In this document: positions 13,803 to 46,648 of the stretch, in pieces | How the letters are laid out: every line of letters begins with the position of its first letter | Position numbering within the stretch: position 1 is the stretch's first letter | Assembly: GCF_000768875.1 (NCBI RefSeq) | Contig: NZ_JRAO01000010.1 | Span: 280,352-330,914 of the forward strand | From: Porphyromonas sp. COT-239 OH1446 | Lineage (GTDB): Bacteria; Bacteroidota; Bacteroidia; Bacteroidales; Porphyromonadaceae | DNA length: 50,563 nt | Reading direction: 5' to 3' | The notes under the pieces: generated by a model | What the model saw: only the letters and a program-made list of their open reading frames with translations | What the model was told of the DNA's origin: nothing | Databases searched by the model: none | Position numbers and translations under genes: made by a program

Positions 13803-13909
13803 AGGACGCCGTAGAGACTCAGATAGGACTTCACTCGAGACTCAGATAGGAGCTCGATCGAGATCCAAGTAGGAGCTCCACTGCGATCCTACCTGGATCT
13901 CGGTATGAA
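13803..13909 (-). repeat. 23-bp intergenic repeat array, locus 1
   Basis: Reverse-oriented units start at 13803 (22 bp), 13825, 13848 and 13871, each beginning AGGA on the plus strand. A forward unit (TCCTACCTGGATCTCGG) follows at 13887. The last reverse and the forward unit form an inverted repeat: 13860-13874 pairs with 13887-13901 in 14 of 15 positions, with a 12-base loop. The array fills the gap between the TPR gene and dtd. Confidence 0.8.
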
Positions 13910-13977
13910 ACCCAGTTGTATTTGTATCTCTCTTGTAATAAGGTTGTTGTGTGGCTCTTGGGCTTTGGTCTGCGCAG

Positions 13978-14436
13978 CTAAAAATACGCCCTCATCTGAG
14001 AGTCCAGGATGATGGTTACTGGCCCGTCGTTGGTCAGCGTGATCTGCATATCTGCCCCGAAGACCCCATAGCTGATCGGACGGCCGAGCCGCTCCTCTAG
14101 AGCCTTGCCGAGGGCTTCGTATAGGGGGATGGCCCTCTCGGGTCGTGAGGCTCGGATATAGGAGGGGCGGTTGCCCTTCTTCGTCGAGGCCATGAGGGTG
14201 AATTGGCTCACCAGCAGCACCTCGCCGCCAGTGTCGATGAGGCTGCGGTTCATGACCCCAGCTTCATCGTCGAAGAGGCGCATCTGTGCGACCTTGCTCG
14301 CCAGGTAGCTGACATCTTCACTGCTGTCTCGGTCTTCGATGCCGACCAGGAGCAGCAGCCCTGGGCCGATCTCGGCATGCCTCTTCTTTTCGATCTCGAG
14401 GCTTGCCCCGAGGACTCGCTGGATCACGATGCGCAT
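13978..14436 (-). CDS. dtd: D-aminoacyl-tRNA deacylase
   Basis: 152-aa homodimeric enzyme that removes D-amino acids (and Gly from tRNA-Ala) mis-attached to tRNA. The family motifs are present: SQFTLMA (the SQxxL motif, at about residues 77-83) and the C-terminal NDGPVTIILDS (the NxGPxT motif). It starts at MRIVIQRVLGASLEI, as in most homologues. It follows uvrC by 21 bp and is the last gene of the mnmG-uvrC-dtd run. Confidence 0.96.
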   Translation of the reverse strand: MRIVIQRVLGASLEIEKKRHAEIGPGLLLLVGIEDRDSSEDVSYLASKVAQMRLFDDEAGVMNRSLIDTGGEVLLVSQFTLMASTKKGNRPSYIRASRPERAIPLYEALGKALEERLGRPISYGVFGADMQITLTNDGPVTIILDSQMRAYF

Positions 14437-14457
14437 AGCTTGGGTAGTTTGATGGGT

Positions 14458-16284
14458 TTATTCGTCTTCCCCCTCGCTCTGAGGGTGGTGTAGAGCGGTG
14501 TAGATGAGAGCCGCCTTGCTCGTGCCTACGACGCTGGCGATCTCCTGGCTCGTGGCCTCTAGGAGGCGATGCACCGAGCCGAAGCTCGAGAGGAGTCGCT
14601 CCTTCGTCTTCGGGCCAATGCCCTTGATGTAGTCGAGGCGAGAGGAGAGCTGGGCCTTGCTCCTGAGATCTCGGTGAAAGCTGATGGCGAAGCGATGTAC
14701 CTCGCTCTGGATCAGCTCCAGCAGCCGAAAGCTCGGGCTCTGGTGCTTGATCGGGATCACCTCGGGCGGTGTGCCGTAGAGGAGCTCCGTGCTGCGGTGG
14801 CGATCATCCTTGACCATCCCCGCCACAGGGATCTCGAGGCCGAGCTCCTCGAGCACGCTCTTGAGGGCATTCATCTGCCCCTTGCCCCCGTCGGCGATGA
14901 TGAGGTCGGGTAGGGGAGCTCCCTCGCTCTGTAGCCTGCTGTAGCGTCTCATGGCGACCTCTCGCATCGAGGCATAGTCGTCCGCCCCCTCGACGCTGCG
15001 GATGCGGTACTTGCGGTAGTCCTTCTTGCTGGGCTTGGCCTGCTTGAAGACGATGCAGGCCGCTACGGCCGAGCTGCCCTGTATGTTCGAGTTGTCGAAG
15101 CACTCTATGTGCATCGGCAGCCGCTCCAGCCCGAGGGCTTGGCGCAGCTCCCCCAGGGTCTGCATCATCCGCTGCTCGGGGTTGAGGCGTTCGGCCTGCT
15201 TGTACTTGTCCACCTTGTACTGTCGGACGTTGCGCTCCGAGAGCTCGAGCAGCTTGCGCTTATCCCCTCGCTGGGGCACGGTGATCGTCGTAACCTCTGG
15301 CAGAGGCCAGTCTATCGCCTGCGAGAGGATGACCTCACGGGCTCGGCTGCCGAAGCGTCGCCTGAGCTCGATGATCGCCGTGGCGAAGAGCTCCGTATCG
15401 CTCTCGTCGAGCTGCACCCGATACTCCAGCGTGTCGGCCTTGGTGATCATCCCCTGCGAGATGTGTAGGTAGTTCACATAGAAGCTGTTCCCATCACGCT
15501 CATAGCTGAAGACATCCACCTGGTGGATGTGCTGCGGGGCTACCGTATGCCGCACCTCATACTGCTCGAGCTGCTCGAGCCGCTCCTTGTAGATCTGCGC
15601 CTCCTCGAAGCGTAGCTCCTCGGCCAGGCGCATCATCTCCTCTCGGTAGAGCTCTATGACGTCCCTGAGGTTGCCCTTCAGGAGGCTGATGATCTCACGG
15701 ATATTGGCCTCGTAGTCCGAATGCTCTTGCCCCCCGATGCAGGGGGCTTTGCACTTCTTGATGTGGTACTGTAGGCACTCTCGGTACTTCCCCTCTCGGA
15801 TCTTGTGCTCGCTCAGGTCTAGGGCGCAGGTGCGCAGGGGGTAGATGTCCTGGATCATCGCCAGCGTCGCATGGGCCATCTGTACGCTGGGGTAGGGCCC
15901 GAAGCGAAGAGACCCATCCCTCGGAGCTCGCCGCAGCACCTGTACCCTGGGGAAGGGCTCGTTGCGTACGATGATCTCGGGATAGGTCTTGTCGTCCTTG
16001 AGCAGGACGTTGTATCGGGGCTGGTGCTCCTTGATCAGATTGTTCTCCAGGATCAGAGCGTCGAACTCCGTCTCTACGACGATGTACTCGATGGCTCTTA
16101 TTTGGCGAACCAGCAGGCGGGTCTTGCTGCTGGTCGTGTCGCTGTGGAAGTAGCTGCTGACCCTACGCCGCAGGTTCTTCGCCTTGCCCACATAGATCAC
16201 CTGCCCCTCGTCGCCTAGGTATTTATAGCAACCAGGGGCTTCGGGTAGGGTGGGGAGGATCTGCTTGATCTCTTCGCGGGTCAT
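14458..16284 (-). CDS. uvrC: Excinuclease ABC subunit C
   Basis: 608-aa nucleotide-excision repair nuclease making both incisions around a UvrB-bound lesion. Order: GIY-YIG nuclease domain (GCYKYLGDEGQVIYVGKAKNLRRRV, about residues 18-42); a cysteine-bearing region; a UVR UvrB-binding motif (MMRLAEELRFEEAQIYKERLEQL, about 215-240); the RNase H-like nuclease (IECFDNSNIQGSSAVA and LIIADGGKGQMN); and C-terminal helix-hairpin-helix motifs (IKGIGPKTKERLLSSFGSV). Length is normal. It begins 24 bp after mnmG; a parS site fills that gap. Confidence 0.97.
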   Translation of the reverse strand: MTREEIKQILPTLPEAPGCYKYLGDEGQVIYVGKAKNLRRRVSSYFHSDTTSSKTRLLVRQIRAIEYIVVETEFDALILENNLIKEHQPRYNVLLKDDKTYPEIIVRNEPFPRVQVLRRAPRDGSLRFGPYPSVQMAHATLAMIQDIYPLRTCALDLSEHKIREGKYRECLQYHIKKCKAPCIGGQEHSDYEANIREIISLLKGNLRDVIELYREEMMRLAEELRFEEAQIYKERLEQLEQYEVRHTVAPQHIHQVDVFSYERDGNSFYVNYLHISQGMITKADTLEYRVQLDESDTELFATAIIELRRRFGSRAREVILSQAIDWPLPEVTTITVPQRGDKRKLLELSERNVRQYKVDKYKQAERLNPEQRMMQTLGELRQALGLERLPMHIECFDNSNIQGSSAVAACIVFKQAKPSKKDYRKYRIRSVEGADDYASMREVAMRRYSRLQSEGAPLPDLIIADGGKGQMNALKSVLEELGLEIPVAGMVKDDRHRSTELLYGTPPEVIPIKHQSPSFRLLELIQSEVHRFAISFHRDLRSKAQLSSRLDYIKGIGPKTKERLLSSFGSVHRLLEATSQEIASVVGTSKAALIYTALHHPQSEGEDE

Positions 16285-16292
16285 GGAGCGGA

Positions 16293-16308
16293 TGTTTCAC
16301 GTGAAACA
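16293..16308. promoter_or_regulatory. parS centromere site (ParB binding)
   Basis: TGTTTCACGTGAAACA is a perfect 16-bp palindrome identical to the consensus chromosomal parS sequence; flanking A/T extend the symmetry to 18 bp. It occupies the 24-bp gap between the mnmG stop and the uvrC start. ParB loaded here would help segregate the chromosome. parS sites usually cluster near the replication origin, so this region is probably origin-proximal (inference). Confidence 0.92.
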
Positions 16309-18189
16309 TTATCGACCGCACAGCACCAGCAGGACGCTCACGTCGTGGGGCGAGATGCCCGGGATGCGTGAGGCTTGCCCGATCGTCCTGGGGCGGATGC
16401 GCTCGAGCTTCTGCCTAGCCTCTGTCGAGATGGAGGAGATCTCTTCGTAGTTCAGATGCTCGGGGATGTGGACGTAGTCCAGTCGAGAGATCTTCTCCGC
16501 CATCTCTCGCTCCCGCTCGATGTAGCCGCTGTACTTGATGAGGATCTCAGCGCATTCGACGATCTCTGCCCGACGAGAGGGAATCTCTCCTAATAGGCGA
16601 CCCAGGGCTGGGACGAGCCCCGAGAGTCCCTCGAGGGAGAGCTGAGGCCTCAGCACGAGGTCAAAGAGCTTACAGCCCTGGCGCAGCGGTGTGATGCCCC
16701 GCTCCTCTAGGGCGGGATTGATCAGCTGGGGCTTGATGGAGTAGGTCTTGGTAAACTCGATGATGCGATCCCTCCACGCCCGCTTCTCCTCCAGGAGGGC
16801 TACTCGCTCCTCAGTGGCGAGCCCGAGCTCTGCCGCCAGCGGCGTGAGGCGCATATCGGCGTCGTCCTGGCGTAGCAGGATGCGATACTCAGCTCTCGAG
16901 GTGAACATGCGGTAGGGCTCATCGACCCCCTTGGTAACTAGGTCGTCGATCAAAACCCCGATGTAGGAAGAGCTGCGGGAGAGGGTGAAGGGGGCTAGCC
17001 CTCTCGTCCTCTGATGGGCATTGATCCCAGCGATGAGGCCCTGCCCTGCTGCCTCTTCGTAGCCCGTCGTGCCATTGACCTGCCCAGCCAAGAAGAGGCC
17101 AGGGATGACCCTGCTCTCTAGCGTGTGGTGCAGCTGCGTGGGGTCGAAGAAGTCATATTCGATCGCATAGCCTGGGCGATAGAGACGCACATGGCGCAGC
17201 TGGGGGATCTGCCTTAGGGCCTCGAGCTGCACCTCGAGGGGCAGAGAGGAGGAGAAGCCATTGATGTAGTACTCATTCGTCGTCTCCCCCTCAGGCTCGA
17301 GGAAGAGCTGATGGCTGTCTTTGTCCGCAAAGGTTACGATCTTGGTCTCGATGCTGGGACAGTAGCGGGGCCCTATGCTTTGGATCTGTCCGTTGTATAG
17401 GGGCGAGCGGTCGAGAGCCTTGCGCAGGACCTCGTGGCAAGCCTTGTTGGTCATCAGTGTATAGCAAGGTCTCTGGATGAGGCTGCTACGGGCAGGTGTG
17501 TCCATGTAGGAGAACTTGTGATGGTCGTCCTCCCCCTCCTGTACACCCATCTCCTTGGGGTCGAACGAGCGGCCATCGATGCGAGGCGGAGTACCAGTCT
17601 TCATCCGATCGGTGCGCAGACCTGCCGCTCGGAGTTGCTCCGTTAGCCCGTGGGAGGCGGGCTCGGAGATCCGTCCTCCCTCGATCTGTAGCTCTCCGAA
17701 GTGCATCAACCCTCCGAGGAAGGTGCCAGCCGTTAGCACGACGGCCTTGCCCTCGAAGCGCACCCCGAGCCTCGTCTCGACCCCCTGCACCCCCTCCTCG
17801 GGGTCTAGGAGGAGACGCTCGACACTATCCTGCCAGAGGTCAAGGTTCGGCTCTTGGTCTAGCTCCTCTCTCCATGCCTCCATGAAGCGCATGCGATCGC
17901 TCTGGGCTCGAGGGCTCCACATCGCTGGACCTTTGCTGCGGTTGAGCATCCGAAACTGGATAGCTGTGCGGTCGGTAATCAGTCCCATCCGCCCTCCTAG
18001 GGCGTCGATCTCTCGGACGATCTGTCCCTTGGCAATGCCGCCCACAGCAGGGTTGCAGCTCATCTGACCGATCTTGTTCATGTCTTGGGTGATGAGGAGC
18101 GTATGCGAGCCAAGTCGGGCGGCGGCAGCGGCGGCTTCACAGCCTGCATGTCCTGCACCGATGACAATAATGTCGTATTGTAGCGTCAT
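16309..18189 (-). CDS. mnmG: tRNA uridine-5-carboxymethylaminomethyl modification enzyme MnmG (GidA)
   Basis: 626-aa FAD/NADH-dependent enzyme that with MnmE modifies the wobble uridine U34 of certain tRNAs. The FAD-binding motif IVIGAGHAGCEAAAAAARLG is at about residues 8-27; MSCNPAVGGIAKG and TAGTFLGG are family signatures, and the C-terminal helical domain has GISPHDVSVLL. The ATG at 18189 (MTLQYDIIVIGAG) is the family start; the longer open frame to 18270 runs through a promoter box and terminator stem. It is followed closely by uvrC. MnmE is not in the window. Confidence 0.97.
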   Translation of the reverse strand: MTLQYDIIVIGAGHAGCEAAAAAARLGSHTLLITQDMNKIGQMSCNPAVGGIAKGQIVREIDALGGRMGLITDRTAIQFRMLNRSKGPAMWSPRAQSDRMRFMEAWREELDQEPNLDLWQDSVERLLLDPEEGVQGVETRLGVRFEGKAVVLTAGTFLGGLMHFGELQIEGGRISEPASHGLTEQLRAAGLRTDRMKTGTPPRIDGRSFDPKEMGVQEGEDDHHKFSYMDTPARSSLIQRPCYTLMTNKACHEVLRKALDRSPLYNGQIQSIGPRYCPSIETKIVTFADKDSHQLFLEPEGETTNEYYINGFSSSLPLEVQLEALRQIPQLRHVRLYRPGYAIEYDFFDPTQLHHTLESRVIPGLFLAGQVNGTTGYEEAAGQGLIAGINAHQRTRGLAPFTLSRSSSYIGVLIDDLVTKGVDEPYRMFTSRAEYRILLRQDDADMRLTPLAAELGLATEERVALLEEKRAWRDRIIEFTKTYSIKPQLINPALEERGITPLRQGCKLFDLVLRPQLSLEGLSGLVPALGRLLGEIPSRRAEIVECAEILIKYSGYIEREREMAEKISRLDYVHIPEHLNYEEISSISTEARQKLERIRPRTIGQASRIPGISPHDVSVLLVLCGR

Positions 18190-18249
18190 AATATATCTTG
18201 GATGAATGCCCCTGGGCTCTCCTCGTGTCGAGGGCTTGGAGGGCTGGCA

Positions 18250-18257
18250 CAAAGATA
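18250..18257 (-). promoter_or_regulatory. -7 box upstream of mnmG
   Basis: TATCTTTG on the minus strand matches TAnnTTTG; the predicted leader to the mnmG ATG is about 55 bases. Confidence 0.5.
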
Positions 18258-18312
18258 CCGTCTCCGCCACTAATCTACAAGCCTTGAGGCCTGTGGGTCG
18301 TGGCGGAGGCGG
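18258..18312 (-). terminator. Terminator-like hairpin after hemW
   Basis: CTCCGCCAC (18262-18270) pairs with GTGGCGGAG (18300-18308), and an inner ACAAGCC/GGCCTGT pairing extends the fold. It lies 27 bp beyond the hemW stop and abuts the mnmG -7 box. Confidence 0.6.
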
Positions 18313-18338
18313 TAGCCTCTAGGCGAGCGAGGGGCTCT

Positions 18339-19457
18339 CTAGAAGAGGTCTGCGATGACCCCGTCGGAGACGAAGACCCCTGAGGGACTCAGGCGTAGCC
18401 TTCCCCCCTCGAGGGTGAGCGTCCCTCGCTCGAGATGCCCCCTCGAGCGATCGAGGAGGCTCTCCACCTCCTTGGCGGAGAACTGCTCGGCCATGGCCTC
18501 GAGGTCGATGCCCCACATCGTCCTGAGACGTGTCAGCAGATATTCGTGGAGCTTGTCCTCGGGGGTAAGGGTCTCGACCTCGTGCGCCCTACGCCCCTCC
18601 TCCAAGGCGAGGGCGTAGAGGGTGGTCGAGGCCACGTTGTGGCTGCGGCGCAGCCCATCATAGCTATGTGCCGAGGGGCCTAGGCCAATGTACTTAGAGC
18701 CGAGCCAATAGCCTGTGTTGAGGCGAGCATAGCAGCCTGGACGAGCGAAGTTGGAGATCTCATAATGCTCGTAGCCTGCCCTAGAGGTCTCGTCGATGAG
18801 TAGCTCGAAGAAGCTAAGACTAGCCTCTTCGCTGACCTCCTGCACTCGCCCTTGTCTGAGGGCGCGCATCATCGGCGTCCCCTCCTCGTAGATGAGATGG
18901 TAGGCCGAGAGGTGGGGAGGGGCGATCTCGAGCATTTGCATGAGGCTACTCCTCCACCCCTCGAGCGTCTGAGCTGGAAGGCCATAGATGAGGTCGAGGC
19001 TGAGGTTGTCGAGGCCGACGGAGCGCAGCAGCTCGACGGCTCTGAGGGCTTGAGCTCGGCTGTGCCTGCGCCCCAGCAGGCGCAGCTCTCCCTCGTCGAA
19101 GCTCTGGACGCCCATGCTCACTCGGTTGATCGGTAGGCGACCCAAGGCCTCGGCGTAGGCGGGGGAGATGTCGTCGGGGTTGGCCTCGAGGGTGATCTCC
19201 CCGCCTGGTAGGAGGTCGTAATGGCGGCGGATGGCCTCGAAGATGGCCTCCAGCTGCTTGATCGAGAGCAGCGAGGGAGTGCCTCCGCCGAGGTAGATAT
19301 GCTCGACGGTCTCGTCTGCCGCTTCGGGAGCGCGTAGCTCCAGCTCCTTGAGCAGGGCAGCATGGTAACGCTCCATCAGACGGAGGTTCGTTCGGGTGTA
19401 GAAGTCGCAGTAGGAGCAGCGTGTGGCGCAGAAGGGGACGTGCAGGTAGAGGTTCAT
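18339..19457 (-). CDS. hemW: Radical SAM haem chaperone HemW family protein
   Basis: 372-aa radical SAM protein. The cluster cysteines are Cys10, Cys14 and Cys17 (CATRCSYCDFY); IYLGGGTPS is the SAM-binding GGGTP motif, and GLPAQTLEGW and the C-terminal HemN-type domain follow. The absence of the extra N-terminal region of true HemN oxygen-independent coproporphyrinogen oxidase favours HemW, which carries haem to enzymes at the membrane. Older annotation would call it HemN-like. Its ATG overlaps the TGA of the upstream sirtuin gene (ATGA at 19457-19454), so the two are translationally coupled. Confidence 0.9.
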   Translation of the reverse strand: MNLYLHVPFCATRCSYCDFYTRTNLRLMERYHAALLKELELRAPEAADETVEHIYLGGGTPSLLSIKQLEAIFEAIRRHYDLLPGGEITLEANPDDISPAYAEALGRLPINRVSMGVQSFDEGELRLLGRRHSRAQALRAVELLRSVGLDNLSLDLIYGLPAQTLEGWRSSLMQMLEIAPPHLSAYHLIYEEGTPMMRALRQGRVQEVSEEASLSFFELLIDETSRAGYEHYEISNFARPGCYARLNTGYWLGSKYIGLGPSAHSYDGLRRSHNVASTTLYALALEEGRRAHEVETLTPEDKLHEYLLTRLRTMWGIDLEAMAEQFSAKEVESLLDRSRGHLERGTLTLEGGRLRLSPSGVFVSDGVIADLF

Positions 19458-20170
19458 CGCCCGAAGATCCCCCCCTCTGTAATGCGCCTCTTGAGCTCCT
19501 CTAGGCCCTTGCTCGCCCCGAGGGCAATATGCTCGATGTCGTGGCGATAGGCCGAGACTACGGGTTTGGGATCGATGAGGATGATGGGTGTCGTCCTTGG
19601 GGCATAGCCTACGAGGCTAGCGGCAGGATAAACCCCGAGCGAAGTGCCTACGATGACGAGCAGATCGGCCACCTCGACGAGTCTTGCCGCAGACTCCATC
19701 ATCGGTACTTCCTCTCCGAACCAAACGATGAAGGGGCGTAGTTGTGAACCATCGGGGGCTAGATCTCCGACCTTGAGGGCGAGGGTCTCGGGCGTTACGG
19801 GGTGGGTGATCTGCCGGTGGGCTACGGAGCAGTTCTTTGTGAGCTCGCCATGCAGGTGTATGACGGAGCTACTGCCTGCTCGCTCGTGCAGGTCATCTAC
19901 GTTTTGGGTGATGATGTCTACTCGATAGCCTGCCTGCTCGAGCTGGGCCAGGGCGATATGTCCTTGGTTAGGCTTGGCGGCAAAGGCCTCACGGCGGCGC
20001 ATGGCGTAGAAGTCGAGGACCAGCTGCGGATTGTGGTAGAAGCCCTCGATGGAGGCTACATCCTCGACACGATGCTTTGCCCAGAGACCGTCGCTGTCTC
20101 TGAATGTGGCCAGTCCACTCTCGGCACTCATGCCTGCGCCCGTGAGGACTACGATGTGGGGGGTACTCAT
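19454..20170 (-). CDS. cobB: NAD-dependent protein deacylase (sirtuin, class III type)
   Basis: 238-aa sirtuin. The NAD-binding loop GAGMSAESGLATFRD is at residues 11-25, QNVDDLH at 89-95, and the catalytic His107 in HLHGEL. Tyr55 and Arg58 (YAMR) match the Y-x-x-R pair that selects succinyl/malonyl-lysine in SIRT5 and CobB. The usual four zinc cysteines between the catalytic His and the FGE motif are absent; only Cys114 is seen. The ATG at 20170 (MSTPHIVVLTGAG) is the family start. It overlaps hemW by 4 bp. Confidence 0.93.
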   Translation of the reverse strand: MSTPHIVVLTGAGMSAESGLATFRDSDGLWAKHRVEDVASIEGFYHNPQLVLDFYAMRRREAFAAKPNQGHIALAQLEQAGYRVDIITQNVDDLHERAGSSSVIHLHGELTKNCSVAHRQITHPVTPETLALKVGDLAPDGSQLRPFIVWFGEEVPMMESAARLVEVADLLVIVGTSLGVYPAASLVGYAPRTTPIILIDPKPVVSAYRHDIEHIALGASKGLEELKRRITEGGIFGR

Positions 20171-20237
20171 TGTGCTTGTTGCTGTGATGTGGATGGAGAA
20201 ATGCTTGCTGCGCTCCCAGGGGGACGAGGGGGAAGGG

Positions 20238-21683: not shown

Positions 21684-21742
21684 ATATCTCTACTATCTTG
21701 GTTACTAAGTGTATATCTATACTGGTGGGGCTTGCTTGTCCC

Positions 21743-21750
21743 CAAAGTTA
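21743..21750 (-). promoter_or_regulatory. -7 box upstream of the metallophosphoesterase gene
   Basis: TAACTTTG on the minus strand matches TAnnTTTG, 60 bases before the ATG. A TTTG lies only 14 bp further upstream, too close for a standard -33 box. Confidence 0.45.
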
Positions 21751-21982
21751 GCTCTTTCTATCCACAAATGTCTCTCTGTGAGTCGCTCCCTGCTGCTCTC
21801 CCAGCAGCTACCTCGTCCCCTGAGGCCCTCCTTCGAGTTCATGATGCCATGCTCCTTGTGGGTGAAGGCTCGGGAGGGTTGTGGCGGAGCTCTCGTCTCT
21901 TCGTCCGTTGAGTGCCTACCGAAGCCTCATCTGAGACCTCGATAGGGGCTCGTCAGACGAGAGGATAGGCCCTCGGTGGAGC

Positions 21983-22095
21983 TCCTACTTAGACCTCTCT
22001 TGCGATCCTATTTGGGTCTCGATGGAAGTCCTACTTAGATCTCTCTTGCGATCCTATTTGGCCCTCGGTAGAGCTCCTATCTAGATCGCTTGAGG
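21983..22095 (+). repeat. 23-bp intergenic repeat array, locus 2
   Basis: Forward units start at 21983, 22006, 22029, 22052 and 22075 with exact 23-bp spacing. Units alternate between TCCTACTTAGAYCTC-type and TCCTATTTGGG-type, giving a 46-bp higher-order period. The array lies just upstream of the operator and promoter of the export operon. Confidence 0.85.
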
Positions 22096-22145
22096 GTAGG
22101 GGATAGCCCTCCTCTCGAGCCCTAGAGCTCGAAGTGTACGCAGGC

Positions 22146-22174
22146 GGACAGTAAGTGTCCGTTATCGGACACTT
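22146..22174 (+). promoter_or_regulatory. Dyad operator (likely enhancer site of the NtrC-type regulator)
   Basis: A perfect inverted repeat with arms AAGTGTCCG (22153-22161) and CGGACACTT (22166-22174) and TTAT between. A third half-site GGACA at 22146-22150 overlaps to give a second, weaker dyad. It is centred about 77 bp upstream of the predicted transcription start, the normal distance for a sigma-54 activator. Binding by the regulator at 34040-35386 is inferred from linkage. Confidence 0.7.
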
Positions 22175-22214
22175 GATTCGAAAATAGTATTTGATAATCA
22201 GCGTGTTATGACTT

Positions 22215-22229
22215 TGGCACGATGCTTGT
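22215..22229 (+). promoter_or_regulatory. Sigma-54-type (-24/-12) promoter
   Basis: TGGCACGATGCTTGT fits TGGCACG-N4-TTGC with one change (final C to T); the GG and G-T elements have the required 10-base spacing. Predicted transcription start is about 22241, giving a leader near 26 bases before the adaptor ATG. The locus encodes its own NtrC-family activator. Confidence 0.72.
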
Positions 22230-22266
22230 TTCTCTACTAGGTAAACGAACAACATCATTACGCATT

Positions 22267-23514: not shown

Positions 23515-23535
23515 CCCCAAGACAAACGACAGGAC

Positions 23536-29405: not shown

Positions 29406-29458
29406 GTTTCGGGCCTCGGAGGAGGCTCGAGGGGTGAGGCTCTAGAGCTCGATGGCAC

Positions 29459-29619
29459 TCCTATTTGGGTCTCAATCGAGGTCCTACTTAGATCTCCATG
29501 GAGCTCCTATTTGGATCTCGATAGAAGTCCTACTTAGATCTCTGTTGCGCTCCTACTTAGATCTCTAGAGAGCCTCTACTTAGACCTCGATCACGGCCCT
29601 ATCTAGGAGCTCAGCTGCG
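29459..29619 (+). repeat. 23-bp intergenic repeat array, locus 3
   Basis: The longest array: forward units start at 29459, 29482, 29505, 29528, 29551, 29574 and 29597, all 23 bp apart. The first four alternate TCCTATTTGG- and TCCTACTTAG-types; the last two are degenerate (CTCTACTTAG, CCCTATCTAG). Confidence 0.88.
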
Positions 29620-35400: not shown

Positions 35401-36696
35401 ATGCGCCTGCGTCATCACTTTACACTACTCTCTCTCTTACTGCTCTCCCTGCTGGTTGTAGCCTCGTTGAGCTTTGTCAGTGGAGAGGGCAGATACCGCC
35501 TTTGGCTGCTCATCCTCTCGGCCCTGTCGCTACTTTACCTACCCTTCTTCTATCGCTTTGCTATTCGCCCGATCAGGAGCATTGAGAGCGGGATGGATCT
35601 CCTGCGAGAGCAGGACTTTAGCTCTCGCCTGCGTTCGGTCGGGCAATATGAGGCCGATGGGGTGATCAAGATCTTTAACCGCATGATGGATCAGCTCAAG
35701 CATGAGCGTCTGCGGCTCAGGGAGCAGAATGAGTTCCTCGATCTGCTTATCCACGCCTCTCCGATGGGCGTGATCGTGCTGGACTATGACCGTCGGGTAA
35801 GCCTGGTCAATCCTGCTGCTCGGCGTATGCTCCAGTTGGAGCAGCACGAGGTCGAGGTCGGTTGGTCTGTGGAGGAGATCACCCGCACCACTCGCCTGCC
35901 GCTGGAGGAGATCCCGCTACACGAGACCCGTTCGCTTACGATGCATGATGGTTCGATCTATAAGTGCACGCTCGAGAGCTTTGTCGATCGAGGCTTCGCT
36001 CGGCACTTCTACCTGATGGAGAGTCTCACCGAGGAGGTGCGGCTGGCGGAGAAGAAGGCCTATGAGCAGGTCATTCGGATGATCTCGCACGAGGTGAACA
36101 ACAGCACGGCTGGCATCACCTCGACGCTCGATACGCTCATCTCTCTCCTGCCCGAGGGCGAGGAGAGCCTCGAGCTGGCCGAGGTCATGCGGGTGTGCAT
36201 CGATCGCTGCTACAGCATGAGCCGTTTCATCACCAACTTTGCCGATGTGGTACGCATCCCAGAGGCCTCGCTACAGCCTACAGACCTCAATCAGCTCCTC
36301 TCGACCTCGGCTCGCCTGATGGAGGGGCTGTGCCTCTCTCGCTCGATCGAGCTCTGCCTCGAGCTAGATCCTCTGCTCGAGCCTGTATGGCTCGATACGC
36401 TTCTCATCGAAGGGGCTGTGCAAAACATCCTCAAGAATGCCGTCGAGAGCATCGAGACCGACGGAGAGATCCGCATCCGAACGAGTCAGAGCAGCCGTAG
36501 TCTCGAGATTGCAGACAATGGGGTAGGGATCTCGAAGGAGGTTGAGGCTCAGCTCTTCCGCCCCTTCTTCTCCACCAAGCGCAGTGGGCAGGGCATTGGA
36601 CTGATCTTCATCCGAGAGGTCATGCTCAGGCACGGCTTCCGCTATAGCCTCAGCACACATCCCGATGGATGGACGCGCTTTGTGATCTACTTCTAA
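35401..36696 (+). CDS. Sensor histidine kinase with a minimal extracytoplasmic loop
   Basis: 431 aa. Two transmembrane helices (about 8-27 and 34-54) are separated by only about six polar residues (SGEGRYR), so there is no periplasmic sensor domain. A HAMP segment (about 52-100), a PAS domain (about 108-215, ASPMGVIVLDYDRRV), and the H-box VIRMISHEVNNS with His230 follow. The catalytic domain has N-box QNILKNAVESI, ADNGVGI and GQGIGLIFIREVM. It is the likely partner of the upstream NtrC-type regulator. The layout recalls intramembrane-sensing kinases. Confidence 0.93.
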   Translation: MRLRHHFTLLSLLLLSLLVVASLSFVSGEGRYRLWLLILSALSLLYLPFFYRFAIRPIRSIESGMDLLREQDFSSRLRSVGQYEADGVIKIFNRMMDQLKHERLRLREQNEFLDLLIHASPMGVIVLDYDRRVSLVNPAARRMLQLEQHEVEVGWSVEEITRTTRLPLEEIPLHETRSLTMHDGSIYKCTLESFVDRGFARHFYLMESLTEEVRLAEKKAYEQVIRMISHEVNNSTAGITSTLDTLISLLPEGEESLELAEVMRVCIDRCYSMSRFITNFADVVRIPEASLQPTDLNQLLSTSARLMEGLCLSRSIELCLELDPLLEPVWLDTLLIEGAVQNILKNAVESIETDGEIRIRTSQSSRSLEIADNGVGISKEVEAQLFRPFFSTKRSGQGIGLIFIREVMLRHGFRYSLSTHPDGWTRFVIYF

Positions 36697-36722: not shown

Positions 36723-36770
36723 AGCTCTCGGGCATACCCTCTAGGTGGAGGCTTGTCCGAGAGCTTTTTT
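36723..36770 (+). terminator. Terminator of the two-component operon
   Basis: AGCTCTCGG (36723-36731) pairs with CCGAGAGCT (36757-36765), followed directly by a run of T. It lies 27 bp after the kinase stop. Confidence 0.88.
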
Positions 36771-37033
36771 GTCCTCCTTGTAGGGCCTCGTAGGAGTGCC
36801 TCTCGAGGGCCGTGTTTTGCTCTTACTTATACCTCTACTGCGATCCTATTTGAGTCTCGATCGAAGTCCTACTTGAGTCTCTGTTGTGATGCTATTTGGA
36901 TCTCAGTTGAAGTCCTCCTTAGACCTCTACTGCGATGCTAGATGGTCTCTCACTCGAGCCTCTGCTGGTGTCTCATCTGCGCCTCAAGTCGCTCTCGAGG
37001 GGACATCCCTGGTTCTAGAGTAGTCGGTGCTCA
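36771..37033. other. Gene-free region with repeat array 4
   Basis: No gene is supported. The stretch consists of the terminator tail, the 23-bp array of locus 4 and about 75 bp of further CTC/GAG-rich sequence leading into the truncated transposase. Confidence 0.7.
36821..36958 (+). repeat. 23-bp intergenic repeat array, locus 4
   Basis: Forward units start at 36821, 36844, 36867, 36890, 36913 and 36936 with exact 23-bp spacing. Units ending in TGCGA or TGTGA alternate with units ending in GAAG, again giving a 46-bp period. Confidence 0.86.
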
Positions 37034-37049
37034 GTGGCTAGGGCGATAG

Positions 37050-37771
37050 CCTCCAAAGAACTTGTTTCTATTGCGCAAGTCTATATTGATAAGAAAGACT
37101 GCGAACTCAATGCCATTGAAATCCTGCTTGAAAAGCTTGATCTAGAGGGCAATCTCATCTCTATAGATGCCATTGCTACTCAGACCAGTTTAGCCAAGAC
37201 CATCACCGCTAGAGGAGGCGATTATCTCTTGCCTGTCAAAGACAATCAGCTACACAGCAAACAAGAATTGGAAGAGCTCTTCTGTCCTCACTTCGCCAAG
37301 CATATCGCTGTTAATAAGCAGACTGAGCTTGGGCACGGACGCATTGAAACAAGGCGTTATGAGAGCATATTGCATCCACTAGAGCTTGAGGCTTCCTCGA
37401 TACTCAGCCGATGGGCTGGCCTAGCTTCTGTCCATAAAGTGAGCCGTATTCGTGAGGATAAAAAGACAGGTAAGAAAAGCCAAGAGACGGCTTATTATAT
37501 TTCCTCCTCAACGGATTTAGAGGCTATACACAAGACTATTCGAGATCATTGGGCCATTGAAAACAAGCTACATTATTGCTTGGATGTCTTTCTCCGGCAA
37601 GATGATTCTCGTAAAAGGGTGCGCAATGTTCCTCAGATTATGGACTTAATACAGAAGGTAAATCTCTATCTACTTCAGCGAATTAAGCAGAAAAAGAAGT
37701 CCTCTATTAGCAGAATGATGTTGAATTTTGGATGCATGTCTCCCAGCCAAATAATCGACCTGGAGTTTTAA
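37050..37771 (+). pseudogene. ISAs1-family transposase, 5'-truncated
   Basis: An open frame encodes roughly the C-terminal 240 residues of an ISAs1-type DDE transposase: NAIEILLEKLDLEGNLISIDA, the GGDYLLPVKDNQ segment, HGRIETRRYESI and DHWAIENKLHYCLDVFLRQD are family hallmarks. Full-length proteins are about 370 aa, so some 130 N-terminal residues, including the DGK region with the first catalytic Asp, are missing. The frame is open from a GTG at 37034, but that is not a real start. Base composition is clearly more AT-rich than the neighbours, consistent with an acquired element. Inactive on its own. Confidence 0.85.
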
Positions 37772-37786
37772 TGCGTCAGCCCTGGG
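37771..37786. repeat. Probable right inverted repeat of the ISAs1 remnant
   Basis: ATGCGTCAGCCCTGGG directly after the transposase stop resembles the GGGCTGACGCA ends of ISAs1-family elements. No matching left end is visible upstream, in line with a truncated copy. Confidence 0.5.
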
Positions 37787-37825
37787 CTCATTGTAACCCT
37801 CGGGCAGTCGTCATTGTTATATGAG

Positions 37826-37833
37826 TACATTTG
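37826..37833 (+). promoter_or_regulatory. -7 box upstream of the DUF389 gene
   Basis: TACATTTG matches TAnnTTTG, 78 bases before the ATG; no clear -33 element. Confidence 0.45.
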
Positions 37834-37910
37834 CAGATCTAATCCCCATGGAGGGGTAGACAATCTGTTGTGATACTCGTCATATCTATAAGTTCACCAG
37901 TACAATAACG

Positions 37911-39302: not shown

Positions 39303-39314
39303 TTCCCAAATCCT

Positions 39315-41498: not shown

Positions 41499-41528
41499 AG
41501 AGACTTCTACCCCCACCTTACAAGATGC

Positions 41529-41572
41529 AGCGAGGCCGTCCCCTACCCCACAGAGTAGAGGACGGCCTCGCT
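41529..41572. terminator. Bidirectional terminator between copA and clpB
   Basis: Two 18-base arms (41529-41546 and 41555-41572, one mismatch) beginning AGCGAGGCCGTCC form a long stem between convergent genes, so it can serve both. The flanks are only weakly T-rich. Confidence 0.8.
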
Positions 41573-41597
41573 ATTGTCATTCGTAGCTCGATGCCCT

Positions 41598-44204
41598 TTA
41601 GGCTTCGGAGCGGAAGAGGTAACCACTCTCGTCAGCATCCATCAGGATAGACCCTCCAGTCTCCACCTCGCCGCTGAGGATGCTTCGGCTAAGCTGACTG
41701 AGCAGCTTGCGCTGGATGACCCTCTTGACTGGACGAGCACCGAACTCGGGGTCGTAGCCCTCAGCCGCAACTCGATCCACCAAAGCATCCGTGTAGCGAA
41801 GGGTGATACCATTGGCAGAAAGAGTCTTCACTGCAGCGTCGAGCAGGAGGCGGACGATCTGACGAATCTCTTCCTCACCTAATGGAGTGAAGACAATGGT
41901 CTCATCGATGCGGTTGAGGAACTCTGGTCTGAGCATCGTCTTGAGCAGCTCGAGGACTTGGTTGCTCGTTCGCTCGAGACGCTCCTCTCGCTGTATCGGA
42001 CTCAGCCCCTTGAGCTCGCTGAGCTGCTGTCGAATAAGGTCGCTACCCATGTTGCTGGTCATGATGATGATCGTGTTCTTGAAGTTCACGACTCGGCCCT
42101 TATTGTCCGTTAGACGTCCATCGTCCAAGACCTGGAGGAGGATATTAAAGACATCGGGGTGCGCCTTCTCGATCTCGTCAAAGAGGACGACAGAGTAAGG
42201 CTTGCGCCGCACAGCCTCTGTGAGCTGACCTCCCTCGTCGTAGCCGATGTATCCCGGAGGCGCACCAACGAGACGAGAGGCGGAGTGCTTCTCTTGATAC
42301 TCACTCATGTCTATGCGGGTGATCATCGTATCGTCGTCGAAGAGCACCTCTGCGAGAGCCTTAGCCAGCTCCGTCTTCCCCACACCTGTGGAGCCGAGGA
42401 AGATGAACGAACCGATGGGTCGCTTGGGGTCTTGCAGCCCTGCACGGCTACGACGAATGGCCTCCGAAACAGCCACGATGGCCTCATGCTGTCCTACTAC
42501 TCGTCGATGCAATTCGTCCTCGAGGTGTAGGAGGCGTTCACGATCGCCCTGCATCATCTTGCCTACGGGGATGCCTGTCCAGCGAGAGACGATGTCAGCG
42601 ATATCCTCCGCCTCGACCTCCTCTCGGATCATAGCACTCTGTCCCTGAGTCTCGGCCAGCTGGCTCTGCGTTTGGGCAATCAGCTCTTCTTGAGCTCGTA
42701 TCTTACCATAGCGGATCTCTGCCACTAGGCCATAATCCCCTGCTCGCTCGGCACGCTCGGCTTCGTGGCTGAGTCGTTCGATCTCGATCTTAGCCTGCTG
42801 GATGCGATTAATGAGTTCCTGCTCGGCTCGCCACTTGGCCATACCAGAGGTCTCCTGCTCCTTGAGGGCAGCGATCTCTGCGGAGAGCTGCTCGACCTTA
42901 GCCTCATCCTGCTCTCTGCGGATGGCCTCTCGCTCGATCTCGAGCTGCTTGATGCGGCGAGCAATCTCGTCGAGATCCTCTGGCAAGGAATCGATCTGCA
43001 TACGCAGTCGAGCTGCAGCCTCGTCCATCAGGTCAATGGCCTTGTCAGGGAGGAAGCGATCGCTGATGTAGCGATCCGACAGGCGAACGGCAGCGATGAT
43101 CGCATCGTCTTTGATGCGTACCTTATGATGATTTTCATACTTCTCTTTGAGGCCTCTCAGAATGGAGATCGAGCTCATCTCATCGGGCTCGTCAACCATA
43201 ACCATCTGGAAACGTCGCTCGAGAGCCTTATCTTTCTCGAAGTACTTCTGATACTCGTCGAGGGTGGTTGCCCCGATGGATCGCAGCTCACCTCGTGCTA
43301 GAGCAGGCTTGAGGATGTTAGCGGCATCCATAGCACCCTCGCTCTTGCCTGCACCGACGAGGGTATGGATCTCGTCGATGAAGAGGATGATCTCCCCCTG
43401 GCTGCGGCTGACCTCACTGACTACGCTCTTGAGACGCTCCTCGAACTCACCCTTGTACTTCGCCCCAGCGATGAGGGCACCCATATCGAGCGAGTAGACC
43501 TGCTTGCTGCGCAGGTTGTCGGGCACGTCGCCTCGCTCGATGCGGTAGGCTAAGCCCTCGGCAATGGCCGTCTTACCGACCCCAGGCTCCCCGATGAGGA
43601 TGGGGTTATTCTTCGTGCGACGTGAGAGGATCTGGAGCACACGGCGGATCTCGTCATCTCGACCGATCACAGGGTCTAGCTTACCCTCTCGAGCTCTTTG
43701 GCAAAGGTTAATGGCATACTTCTCGAGAGCCTGATACTGCTCCTCTGCACTTTGACTGGTTACACGGTTGCCGCCGCGCAGCTCGGCGATAGCCAGGCGA
43801 AGGGCTTTCTCCTCAGCACCGAGGTCGCTCTTGAGGATCTTGCTGATGGGTGAGGAGGTAAGCAGAAGGGCGAGGAAGAGGTGCTCGAGGGCCACATATT
43901 CGTCTTTCATCTCGGTGGCCAGTCCCTCAGCACGCTCAAGCACCTCGTGCGAGTTGCGGCTCAGGTAAGGCTCAGCCCCCGATACACGGGGCATCTGAGC
44001 GATCTGCTGGGCGCAGGCCTCTTGCAGTCGCTGCTGAGGGATAGAGAGCTTGGCCAGCAGGAAGGGGATGGGGCTACCCTCGATGCTGAGCAGGCTCGAG
44101 AGTAGATGGGCAGGTTCAATAGCCTGTCCTCCGCTCTGTCGTACGAGCTCTACGGAGTTTTGCAGAGCTTCTTGAGCTTTGATTGTATAGCGATTGATGT
44201 TCAT
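41598..44204 (-). CDS. clpB: ATP-dependent disaggregase ClpB
   Basis: 868-aa Hsp100 chaperone that with DnaK pulls proteins out of aggregates. Order: N-domain (1-145, double Clp repeat); NBD1 with Walker A GEPGVGKT at 205-212 and Walker [11 protein letters not shown]; a coiled-coil M-domain (about 400-520) rich in Glu/Arg/Gln, which distinguishes ClpB from ClpA/ClpC; NBD2 with GSTGVGKTE near residue 603 and [13 protein letters not shown]; then the D2 small domain. The ATG at 44204 ([14 protein letters not shown]) is the family start. It is transcribed alone; an inverted repeat lies in the upstream region. Confidence 0.97.
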
Positions 44205-44451
44205 AGCAGTTGTTTGTCTTGTTGTTTTGTGCCTTGAATTGGAGTGATTGTTGTCTCTGAATGTCGGGCAAGTAGGCCTACGCACCGGCTTCGAAGGTCT
44301 CCCCTCGCCCTACATCTATGCCCCTGCAAATCTCATGCAAGGGGCTAAAAACGAGACATATTGACTGAAAATAGGGCTTCAACAGACCTCTCCACAGAGT
44401 TTATAAGCCATTCTGTCTCACTTCTCTGCCGAGGAGCTCCCTCTCAATACC
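44205..44451. promoter_or_regulatory. clpB upstream region with an inverted repeat
   Basis: No gene is seen. CCCCTGCAAA at 44321 and TGCAAGGGG ending at 44344 form an imperfect dyad that includes GAGATTTG on the minus strand, one base from the TAnnTTTG -7 consensus. It may be the clpB promoter with an overlapping operator; no CIRCE element is present. Confidence 0.35.
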
Positions 44452-44488
44452 ACGAGCCCACCCCCATACTTCGGGGATGGGCTCGTGC
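44452..44488 (-). terminator. Terminator after the sdaA-DUF4294 pair
   Basis: CACGAGCCCA pairs with TGGGCTCGTG, extended by CCCC/GGGG pairing around a short loop, 14 bp beyond the DUF4294 stop. Confidence 0.75.
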
Positions 44489-44502
44489 ACTCTCTCCTGG
44501 GG

Positions 44503-45093
44503 CTAGAGCATGCCTAGCTCGAGGAGTCGGATGATGCGCTCTGTCGTGGCATCGTTGGGATTGTTCTGCGGGTCATAGCCCACCTTGAGCGAAGCCCCCA
44601 TGAGGTTGGCGAAGGCATTCCACCACCAAGCCTTGAAGCCGCCGAGCACGGCCTTGACCAGCTCATAGCTCGTCTGCCCAGTCTGTCGGTAGACAAGCTG
44701 GATAAGCAATTGTCCCTGGCGCAGAGTCAAGCCCCTCATCTTGGGTTCCATATCTCGGCGCAGCTCTCGCTGCACCCGCCGAAGATGTTGCTCCTGCTCT
44801 CGCTCCGTGGGCAACGTCTCCATGTACTCGTACGTCTCGATAAGGGTCGCAGCGATGTAGCGCGCATAGGGCAGAGTCTTGCGCACGTCTCGGATGCGCC
44901 TGCGCAGTCGGTACTGCTCGAGCTCATTAAGCGGTCGGGGGAGGCTCTTGGCCTCGATGAGAAGCTCTGGCAGTTCGTCGCCCCAGACTGGGGGCTCGTC
45001 CGTCCCTACCTCTTGTGCTCGCAGCGACCCGAGGCCTAGGAGGAGGCCTAGGAAAAGCAATAGGGCTCTAGGGGTCTGCTCGAGCGAGATCAT
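44503..45093 (-). CDS. DUF4294 domain secreted protein
   Basis: 196 aa with an N-terminal signal sequence (LLLFLGLLLGLGSLRA, cleavage near residue 26 before QEVG). The body matches DUF4294 of Bacteroidota: RDVRKTLPYARYIAATLIETYEY, LTLRQGQLLIQLVYRQTGQTSYELVKAVLGGFKAWWW and a C-terminal LKVGYDPQNNPNDATTERII. Predicted helical, periplasmic, function unknown. It starts 3 bp after the sdaA stop, so it is translated from the same message. Confidence 0.87.
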   Translation of the reverse strand: MISLEQTPRALLLFLGLLLGLGSLRAQEVGTDEPPVWGDELPELLIEAKSLPRPLNELEQYRLRRRIRDVRKTLPYARYIAATLIETYEYMETLPTEREQEQHLRRVQRELRRDMEPKMRGLTLRQGQLLIQLVYRQTGQTSYELVKAVLGGFKAWWWNAFANLMGASLKVGYDPQNNPNDATTERIIRLLELGML

Positions 45094-45096
45094 GGC

Positions 45097-46320
45097 TTAG
45101 TCGATGTGCTGACCGTAGATGTTGTAGGTAGAGGCTAGGCCTCCCGTCGAGGTCTCTCGGTACAGGCTGGGCAGATCATGCCCCGTCTTGCGCATGACCT
45201 CGACGACCTGATCGAAGCTCACTCGGTGCTGCCCATCGCTAAACGTACCATAGGTATTGGCATCCAACGCCCGTGCAGCAGCGAAGGCATTGCGCTCGAT
45301 GCAGGGGATCTGTACCAGGCCGCATACGGGGTCGCAAGTCAAGCCGAGGTGATGCTCCAGGCCCATCTCGGCCGAATACTCGATCTGCAAATTAGAGCCG
45401 CCGAAGAGCTGACAGGCTGCGGCTGCCCCCATAGCACAGGCGACTCCGACCTCACCTTGACAGCCGACCTCTGCCCCAGAGATAGAAGCATTGGTGCGGA
45501 CTACATTGCCGAAGAGACCTGCCGTGGCCAAAGCTCTGAGGATGCGTTTGCGAGAGAAGTCTCGGCTCTGCTGTAGGTGATACAGCACAGCAGGGATGAC
45601 GCCACAGCTGCCGCATGTAGGGGCTGTTACCACTCGCCCGCCCGAGGCGTTGTGCTCGCTCACGGCTAGGGCATAGGCATAGACGAGGCCTTTGCTCTTG
45701 ATACTAGCCGCCCCATAGCCTTGCGCCTTGACTAGATAAGTCGAAGCCTTGCGCTTGAGGCCTAGACCACCGGGCAATACTCCCTCGGCCTCGAGCCCAG
45801 AGAGGATGGCCTCTTGCATGACCGTCCACACCTCGTCGAGGAAGTCCCAAATGTCGGAGTCCTCGTACTGCTCGACGTACTCCCAGTAGCTCATGCCGCT
45901 CTTGGAGAGTACCCGCATGATGTCGCGCATATTATGCTCGGGGTAGATCTCCTTGATGCGCTGCTCGTTGAAGTCTTCATTGGCCAGCGTCCCTCCGCCG
46001 ATGCTGAAGACGGTGAAGGTATCGATGATCTGCCCGTGGGTATCGTAGGCGTCGAACTTCATCCCATTGGGGTGGAAGGGGAGGATCACATCGGGCAGCC
46101 ACTCGATAGTCGTCGGGGCATGAGGCGTGAGGATGTTGAGCAGGGCGGTATCGGTCATGTGCCCCTTGCCCGTGGCCGCTAGGCTACCATAGAGGGTTAC
46201 TGTATAGCTACAGGCCTCGGGGCAACGCTCGAGGAACATCTGTGCGGCTCGCACAGGGCCCATGGTATGGCTACTGCTCGGCCCATAGCCGATGCGAAAG
46301 ATTTGCTTGATAGATTCCAT
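45097..46320 (-). CDS. sdaA: L-serine ammonia-lyase (iron-sulfur L-serine dehydratase)
   Basis: 407-aa single-chain enzyme deaminating L-serine to pyruvate and ammonia, feeding amino-acid fermentation. The N-terminal beta domain contains [12 protein letters not shown] (about 11-22). The C-terminal alpha domain contains the [4Fe-4S]-binding cysteines in [22 protein letters not shown] and [14 protein letters not shown]. The ATG at 46320 ([13 protein letters not shown]) is chosen over an open extension to 46407. A TACTTTTG -7 box lies about 85 bases upstream. Pyruvate produced here connects with the pyruvate kinase encoded at 48.8 kb. Confidence 0.95.
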
Positions 46321-46404
46321 AAGGATCGAAATAGGTGGATAAGGCTGTCGCAGCCACTCCCTCACCGAGCCCTCGGGGGCAAGATAAGGCCCTGCGACAT
46401 CATT

Positions 46405-46412
46405 CAAAAGTA
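46405..46412 (-). promoter_or_regulatory. -7 box upstream of sdaA
   Basis: TACTTTTG on the minus strand matches TAnnTTTG; the -33 element is not clear. Confidence 0.45.
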
Positions 46413-46551
46413 AGAAAAAACTTACATTTGTTCGACTAAGCTCTGTCGCCCTCAGAGAGGGCCTCAGCCGAAGGGCCCATAGGGCTTCGGATAAAGTCCT
46501 ATCAGGCCTCTCAATCGAGGGCCTAGATGGGATGTACCCAAAGTCCCAAGT

Positions 46552-46648
46552 AGGGGCTCATTGGAGACCTAAGTAGGACTTCACTTGAGATCCAAATAGG
46601 ACTTCATTGGAGACCTAAGTAGGACTTCACTCGAGATCCTATTTGGAG
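46552..46648 (-). repeat. 23-bp intergenic repeat array, locus 5
   Basis: Reverse-oriented units start at 46552, 46575, 46598 and 46621 with exact 23-bp spacing, and degenerate traces extend left to about 46495. A forward partial unit (TCCTATTTGGA, 46637-46647) is the exact inverse of 46591-46601, so the array ends in an inverted copy as at locus 1. Confidence 0.85.

Follow-up and report, generated by a model that had tools for sequence, protein, structure and literature searches.

Tandem arrays of a 23-bp palindromic unit lie in the intergenic gaps of this Porphyromonas genome (G000), in strict phase and evenly spaced along the chromosome. We put at about even the chance that they are homotypic site clusters bound by a dimeric protein that reads their sequence, most likely an HU-HIG protein of the Bacteroidota. 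The arrays point to a little-known way for histone-like proteins to control the chromosome or its genes. A literature search found no description of them in the text available from the papers retrieved, the nearest being those on the BrickBuilt repeat.

The repeat unit and its phase

The unit consists of a 19-bp imperfect palindrome and about 4 bp of the form NATN, 23 bp in all. A relaxed profile gives the unit dyad as GAGRTCCTA-N-TAGGAYCTC, and two dyads are possible per unit. Because the dyad is imperfect, unit orientation is partly arbitrary. In the 50,563-nt window, i.e., the whole stretch of DNA analysed, the first-pass annotation placed head-to-tail 23-bp units in five intergenic gaps. 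A weight matrix finds units in all five, and Tandem Repeats Finder (TRF) calls a period of 23 and/or 46 at each (Table 1). The 23-bp head-to-tail phase holds; the uniform orientation does not, as the gaps starting at 13803 and 46552 contain mostly minus units and the strand switches without loss of phase.

Table 1. Arrays and an adjoining gene, in window coordinates (unit centres from the weight matrix)
Feature	Position	Strand	Unit centres	Description
Array 1	13810..13905	-	13823, 13846, 13869, 13892	3 minus units and 1 plus unit in one 23-bp phase; matrix and TRF (13814-13878, period 23)
Array 2	21979..22093	+	21988-22080 (5 units)	5 plus units, subtypes mostly alternating; divergent flanking genes; two steps upstream, at 21942, a weak minus unit; matrix and TRF
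Array 3	29455..29592	+	29464-29579 (6 units)	6 plus units; flanked by two MacB/FtsX-type permease genes; matrix and TRF
Array 4	36817..36931	+	36826-36918 (5 units)	5 plus units; gap between histidine kinase gene and DDE transposase reading frame; matrix and TRF (period 46 only)
Array 5	46560..46674	-	46573-46665 (5 units)	5 units in phase, three minus followed by a weak plus and a weak minus; flanked by the serine dehydratase and pyridoxamine-phosphate oxidase genes, which diverge; matrix and TRF
Serine dehydratase gene	45097..46407	-		Adjoins array 5; Pfam SDH_alpha/beta

The census covered 850,563 bases of G000 (43% of the genome), with genes called by a custom script, not a standard gene caller. 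The matrix finds 388 units there, against 15 in the reversed sequence; 375 are intergenic and 13 fall in called coding sequence, in keeping with the earlier description of the repeats as non-coding. Among 295 consecutive unit steps, 274 are exactly 23 bp, one is 22 bp and none is 24 bp. Weaker in-phase units run on for 3-4 steps beyond the arrays on average. At the six most variable positions, the unlikeness of adjacent units (0.375) is that of units from different arrays (0.373). Thus, spacing is kept while these positions drift, which bears out the proposal that spacing is under selection. Simple tandem copying fails as an explanation, because at variable positions a unit resembles its neighbours no more closely than it does the units of other arrays. 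Higher-order copies do occur, as 46-bp and 69-bp duplications, and some arrays have 24-mers in common, most of them between C2:244873 and window position 36675. The two unit subtypes do tend to alternate, as first described.

Distribution along the chromosome and among relatives

Units occur outside the window too, as the wider scan called for by the first reading makes clear: with up to two mismatches, TCCTAYTTRGRTCTC matches 626 times in the whole genome and the reversed pattern 34 times. The 850 kb contain 75 arrays of at least three units, which scales to about 170 per genome. With the weight matrix their spacing is even (mean 11.4 kb, minimum 5.1 kb), which is unusual against any bacterial repeat known to us. 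The evenness is weaker with a sequence-agnostic detector (69 G000 arrays), for which the share of null draws with a spacing CV no greater than that observed is 0.385, 0.021 and 0.107 for the G000 contigs and, among relatives, 0.005 (G001), 0.035 (G002), 0.178 (G011), 0.458 (G013), 0.154 (G006) and 0.215 (G025).

Long intergenic gaps are the usual array sites, and among gaps of at least 300 bp there is little bias towards divergent ones. Most arrays are upstream of TAnnTTTG promoter boxes, at a distance of about 160 bp. Array position at orthologous genes gives an odds ratio of 4.6, which drops to 2.2 (P 0.15) when both gaps must measure 200 bp or more; long upstream gaps account for most of the effect. 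Across the stretches sampled, too few gene pairs were shared for orthologous gaps to be compared by synteny.

The genus sample comprises 26 genomes, G000 and 25 others. The unit sequence is enriched in G000 only and stands at background level in the other 25; what recurs among relatives is the kind of array. That is, many relatives have 22-24-bp palindromic arrays of other sequences, with a core common to many loci and a free spacer. For the most part the families differ from one species to the next, and a genome may hold several. A sharp 22-24 period, with little signal at other lags, marks most Porphyromonas samples, the exceptions being G001 and G025, with lags 21 and 14; simulated sequence shows almost none. 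Palindromic 22-bp arrays are present in G006, which we take to be P. gingivalis ATCC 33277. In G014, the closest relative in the sample, 100 kb contain one or two arrays; dense arrays are therefore not essential to the genus. At serine dehydratase loci of relatives (L152-L172), TRF finds upstream arrays of other sequences (21-24 bp) in 5 of 21 (L154, L155, L160, L169 and L170), and the same arrays are found at loci L177, L178 and L184.

Candidate readers of the arrays

HU/IHF and HU-HIG proteins are candidate binders. HU-HIG, a histone-like family of DNA-binding proteins, corresponds to PF18291 (NCBIfam TIGR01201, HU_rel), which has 3 to 17 matches per Porphyromonas genome, classic HU included. 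Arrays stand upstream of 9 of the 10 HU-HIG genes examined, compared with 1 of 4 classic HU genes taken as a control. The link was first noticed from coordinates and tested afterwards, after ArgR and Lrp had been tried. Three minor array families have a copy lying upstream of an HU-HIG gene of their own genome. With such HU-HIG-linked 22-24-bp arrays, those of G000 share tandem palindromic units, intergenic location and a position upstream of TAnnTTTG boxes.

The prediction that the dominant family would also lie upstream of an HU-HIG gene failed. Dominant-family units are found upstream of none of six HU-HIG/HU loci in G000 (L277-L282; a further HU-type locus lies at C8:88948-89361), and in G001 the dominant CCACGTGG family, scored as exact pairs, is absent upstream of the sole full-length HU-HIG gene. 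This result counts against an HU-HIG reader, as do the scarcity of arrays in G014 and the part played by long upstream gaps at orthologous genes. By elimination, the HU-HIG protein encoded at C2:277934 (L277), whose predicted model has an HU fold, is the best, though weak, candidate for the binder of the dominant family. The link between period 23 and an HU-HIG subgroup involves two proteins, one of which has a long branch; L278, with period 22, falls on their side of the tree. HU proteins are noted above all for a weak sequence preference, and we know of no sequence-specific tandem array for HU-HIG. HU-HIG is not named in the available text of the papers found by one literature search, and crystals of HU with 19- and 20-bp DNA are on record.

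In the proposed arrangement, one dimer would sit on the dyad GAGRTC-N7-GRYCTC of every 23-bp unit (about 2.2 helical turns), and contacts between neighbouring dimers would keep the spacing while the spacer sequence drifts. One array family has come to occupy about one locus in every 11 kb, on the upstream side of ordinary promoters. When bound, the arrays, perhaps as filaments, would be stiff or bent nucleoprotein segments that could influence promoters 130-220 bp away, and they may divide the chromosome into loops about 10 kb long. The first-pass suggestion of protein binding is supported indirectly, by features of the sequence: a conserved dyad with little covariation (see below), promoter geometry and sister families near HU-HIG genes.

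We also entertain, tentatively, a chromosome-wide code in Bacteroidales. Each HU-HIG paralogue would read its own phased 22-24-bp palindrome, control its own gene by such an array, and be able to expand its sites to about one per 10 kb, which would set nucleoprotein anchors at even intervals upstream of housekeeping promoters. The dominant paralogue would change from species to species, so that sequence turns over while spacing and architecture persist. If each paralogue reads a phased array, what the paralogues do can be tested directly, and the arrays would map target promoters and possible loop anchors in Bacteroidales of the mouth and perhaps of the gut.

A conventional global regulator outside the HU family, reading several helically phased palindromes per promoter as at ArgR, MetJ or Lrp operators, is unlikely but deserves serious weight. 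It would give the same anatomy and promoter-proximal position, and it fits both the common core with free spacer in relatives and a dominant family without a link to HU-HIG genes. ArgR and Lrp themselves were rejected, as their distribution does not fit: the ArgR domain PF02863 has no match in 13 of the 26 genomes (G000, G002, G006, G011 and nine others), and AsnC/Lrp PF01037 is present in one copy or none per genome, although several array families may coexist. Ordinary operators, moreover, are not known to be evenly spaced along a chromosome, unlike the arrays. Plasmid iterons and ArgR, MetJ and NrdR operators also set tandem sites about two helical turns apart for an oligomeric reader, but at one or a few loci per replicon and without known even spacing. 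BIME/REP arrays and matS of E. coli are dispersed palindromic or protein-bound sites with architectural roles; they are not known for a fixed 23-bp phase of many units, and REPs lie mostly downstream of genes.

BrickBuilt and explanations without a reader

The nearest described relative of the arrays is BrickBuilt of P. gingivalis, a minisatellite/MITE with a 23-nt intergenic repeat, as described by Klein 2015 (PMC4596501). It is, like the arrays, free of spacers, always intergenic and dispersed, and it belongs to the same genus. The BrickBuilt unit, AGAYCATARTATCCTCTCRTRTG, shows partial dyad symmetry and can be aligned with the G000 unit as GAG-N11-GTCTC-N4. A selfish repeat of this kind, spread by duplication, conversion or transposition and without a host role, would suit the higher-order copies, the shared 24-mers and the differences in family among species; we nevertheless think it improbable. 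BrickBuilt has 19 elements in ATCC 33277, compared with about 170 arrays in G000, and a leader and tail with IS5-like terminal repeats (PMC4596501). No such repeats (GAGACCTTTGCA/TGCAAAGGTCTC, at most one mismatch) occur in the 75 array gaps. BrickBuilt units are near-identical within an array (TRF 91% match), unlike those of G000.

Homology to BrickBuilt is not significant: one BrickBuilt unit (TRF consensus from G006) scores -6.2 on the unit matrix, and 8.6% of 3000 shuffles do at least as well (P 0.086). The window has zero Rfam matches at gathering score. The match to a known repeat family that would have told against the first reading was thus not found in these comparisons. Neither do the flanks show a common leader, tail or end: the commonest 12-mer is in 4 of 148 near-flank pieces, where common words resemble degraded units, and the commonest 10-mer of the far flanks (first 110 bp skipped) is in 7 of 132 and matches the promoter box. 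Of the earlier idea of self-spreading, then, the duplications and a few shared segments stand, and common ends do not. The unrelatedness of adjacent units at variable positions, the near absence of 22- and 24-bp steps, even spacing and promoter geometry also speak against it. Origin from phages or plasmids was rejected: one array had no match in phages and plasmids, and one strict two-unit pattern was not found in viral contigs.

A chain of stem-loops, as transcribed RNA hairpins or DNA cruciforms, is very improbable. The two possible dyads per unit would allow it, and at positions 0/10 T-G combinations are common, though not in excess of expectation. A hairpin fails, because dyad positions hardly covary (mutual information 0.00-0.09, complementary fraction at most 0.06 from expectation); structured RNA is further opposed by the Rfam result and by the position of most arrays upstream of promoter boxes. 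Neutral slippage in long gaps, which the location of the arrays would suit, merits hardly any credence given the conserved cores, the even spacing and a sharp 22-24 period across most Porphyromonas samples that simulated sequence almost lacks.

Tandem repeats in P. gingivalis W83 reportedly go back to Nelson 2003. The passage of PMC4596501 that cites them lists 22-, 23- and 41-nt repeats, says that their locations had been left out, and makes no mention of palindromes, spacing or a partner protein; the 22-nt length is that of the palindromic arrays in G006.

Anatomy and phase of the repeat unit

The five 23-bp arrays that the first-pass annotation described in the window (C2:280352–330914 of a 1.96-Mb draft in 37 contigs) are real, and their units are not confined to it: the whole genome holds 626 matches to TCCTAYTTRGRTCTC with at most 2 mismatches, against 34 with the reversed pattern. 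The arrays are a real, genome-wide and unusual feature. In 850,563 bases of the genome, a weight matrix built from 176 seeds (score >8) found 388 units, against 15 in reversed sequence; 375 are intergenic and 13 fall within called coding sequence, which bears out the earlier description of the arrays as non-coding. The units form 93 clusters; 75 of these have at least three units, with four or five the usual number. The relaxed profile consists of an imperfect dyad of 19 bp, GAGRTCCTA-N-TAGGAYCTC, and a spacer of 4 bp, NATN.

The exact period also held. Among 295 steps of up to 120 bp between units, 274 are exactly 23 bp, six are 46 or 69 bp, one is 22 and none is 24; 14 steps, mostly of 47 or 70 bp, are out of phase. 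The 23-bp phase is maintained through runs of units in mixed orientation, and spacer length is far better kept than spacer sequence. The latter is read, as initially proposed, as selection on spacing.

Simple tandem copying does not account for the arrays. Where the unit varies most (six positions), neighbours of one orientation (221 pairs) agree at 0.375, against 0.373 for units of different arrays, and are not recognisable as mutual copies. Agreement is 0.519 two steps apart and 0.430 three steps apart, so two- or three-unit duplications do occur, and some arrays contain higher-order copies of 46 or 69 bp. Nor does a hairpin account for them: across the 388 units, complementary pairs on either dyad are about as frequent as expected from column composition, and the excess is greatest inside the spacer (0.30 observed, 0.24 expected).

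BrickBuilt, the nearest described relative, is a 23-nt minisatellite within a MITE of P. gingivalis (Klein 2015, PMC4596501). That paper mentions 41-, 23- and 22-nt repeats noted earlier in W83, locations not given, and PMC5771137 annotates BrickBuilt and states that it leaves short repeats unannotated. The terminal repeats of BrickBuilt are absent from the array gaps here (0/75), and no common end was found among the arrays; their near flanks resemble degraded units.

Placement along the chromosome and at genes

The 69 within-contig gaps between the 75 arrays have a mean of 11.4 kb, a median of 10.4 kb, a minimum of 5.1 kb and a CV of 0.44. Eight null pools of intergenic gaps (minimum 200 to 500 bp; any, or gene-upstream only) gave mean CVs of 0.57–0.80 and on average 6.7–17.9 gaps below 5 kb; the observed CV was reached by 0 of 3000 draws in each. 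With a sequence-agnostic detector, even spacing is weaker and often not significant per contig or genome. For the dominant family of another Porphyromonas genome, G001, 50 loci from the first pairs listed gave a CV of 0.70, where uniform placing gives 0.97 (P 0.007); three of the gaps were below 5 kb.

Arrays lie upstream of genes, at a median of 241 bp from the start codon; 7 of 75 are in convergent-gene gaps. The motif TAnnTTTG, the Bacteroidota -7 element, occurs between array and gene 80 times in sense and 6 times in antisense orientation; 73 of 102 segments contain a box, the gene-nearest one being a median of 163 bp from the array. Boxes are nearly as frequent at genes without a nearby array (66/111), so the promoters adjoining arrays are ordinary ones. 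Twenty downstream genes, picked by hand for family look-up, include those for a ClpP-type protease, a pyruvate formate-lyase-like protein and phosphoglycerate mutase, and pheS, gyrB, dnaN, topA and purA; five had no family match. At orthologous genes an array was present in both this genome and relatives in 21 cases, here only in 41, in relatives only in 29 and in neither in 259 (odds ratio 4.6); restricting the comparison to genes with an upstream gap of 200 bp or more on both sides lowers the ratio to 2.2 (P 0.15), a point against the binding-site reading.

Arrays of other sequences in relatives

Judged by serine dehydratase, the closest relatives with names are Porphyromonas-type records: COT-290 (84%), a Porphyromonadaceae MAG (82%), oral taxon 278 (80%) and P. 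pasteri (78%); records of this genome itself may be absent from that comparison. Scanning related genomes, as the first-pass annotation suggested, recovered the architecture and not the sequence. In 25 other genomes of the genus, TCCTAYTTRGRTCTC matches were close to reversed-pattern controls; among 247 genomes sampled from the order (one per species), a 19-bp version of the unit was enriched in this genome only (419 matches, control 2), every other genome having two or fewer. TRF and a lag scan did find intergenic arrays in other Porphyromonas genomes; their period is 22, 23 or 24 and their sequences differ from the one here. Simulated sequence gave almost no gaps at the peak lags.

Lag-scan counts in genomes (gaps at peak lag) and at named loci around one gene (number of loci in brackets)
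Source	Count	At other lags
This genome (G000)	58 at 23	
G002	27 at 23, 8 at 24, 6 at 22	
G011	18 at 22	
G006	9 at 22	
G012	7 at 22	
G261, sister genus	4 at 22 in 40 kb	
Parabacteroides (33)	18 at 21–23	5
Bacteroides/Mediterranea (13)	4 at 22	1 at 28
Tannerellaceae (6)	2	5
Massilibacteroides (2)	1	
Prevotellaceae (2)	2	1
Other Bacteroidales (7)	1	

G003 and G004 had one gap each at lags 21–24, and G005, G144, G168, G246 and G136 none in 35–40 kb each. The nearest genome by gene identity, G014, had one or two arrays in 100 kb. As exceptions, G001 and G025 also carry 21- and 14-bp repeats, and G013 and G253 have one gap each scoring at every lag. No matches were seen at the named loci of Rikenellaceae (2) or Muribaculaceae (4), and no such arrays in 100 kb of E. 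coli.

A palindromic core, not the spacer, is often common to several loci of one genome, and such cores are almost wholly intergenic (CCACGTGG in G001, 61 intergenic to 4; CTATATAG in G011, 41 to 1). Dyad scores of array consensuses are clearly above shuffled in G011, G013, G002, G006, G001, G025, G261 and the single G014 array. The excess is less clear in G245, G012 and this genome taken one array at a time, and G003, G004, G169 and G078, with one or two arrays each, show none. Arrays of 21–23 bp, palindromic by eye and mutually unrelated in sequence, were seen at loci of Parabacteroides (L180, L199, L205), Bacteroides (L250) and Hoylesella (L234). In G001 (L071, L073, L074 and other loci) and G025, compound elements in which 22-bp CCACGTGG arrays flank the 21-bp repeat TTCCTCCGAAGTTTCATTTGA are repeated many times; they resemble a mobile element more closely than this genome's arrays do.

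Candidate binders and neighbouring features

Against an HU-type binder, of seven HU-HIG or HU-type loci in this genome the six examined (L277–L282, the seventh being on C8) have no dominant-family units upstream. Near the one full-length HU-HIG gene of G001 its dominant family is likewise absent, the nearest exact pair among those listed being about 6.8 kb away. The link to HU-HIG genes, which encode HU-related DNA-binding proteins (PF18291), therefore holds for minor families; we infer its extension to the dominant family from shared anatomy and elimination only. The arrays are most likely phased binding-site arrays, and their putative binders are most likely HU-type proteins. Searches of open-licence papers listed no account of evenly spaced, species-swapped 22–24-bp palindromic arrays, nor of an HU-HIG link to them.

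Counting both strands, 90 24-mers are common to the region of the window's fourth array and an array elsewhere on C2, so that a segment was seemingly copied between the two loci.

Coordinates of individual features
Position	Feature	Remark
Window 11265–12573	138-bp (276-bp) tandem repeat	Encodes TPR repeats in a 736-aa protein
Window 37034–37771	DDE transposase-like reading frame (PF01609)	Adjoins fourth array
C2:244873	Array	Shares 24-mers with fourth array region
C2:263000–294000 (includes window 1–13800)	31 kb without dominant-family arrays	Holds HU-HIG gene L277; window part holds a gyrase/topoisomerase IV subunit A gene
C24:76310–76540 (L070); C20:33352–33550; C7:106390–106550	Arrays in which higher-order copies of 69 or 46 bp are clear	Strands alternate unit by unit in one of the three
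C23:9016–9198; C23:57177–57548 (L051, L053)	Near-perfect 91–92-bp tandem duplications	Two lie side by side; the duplications may be assembly artefacts
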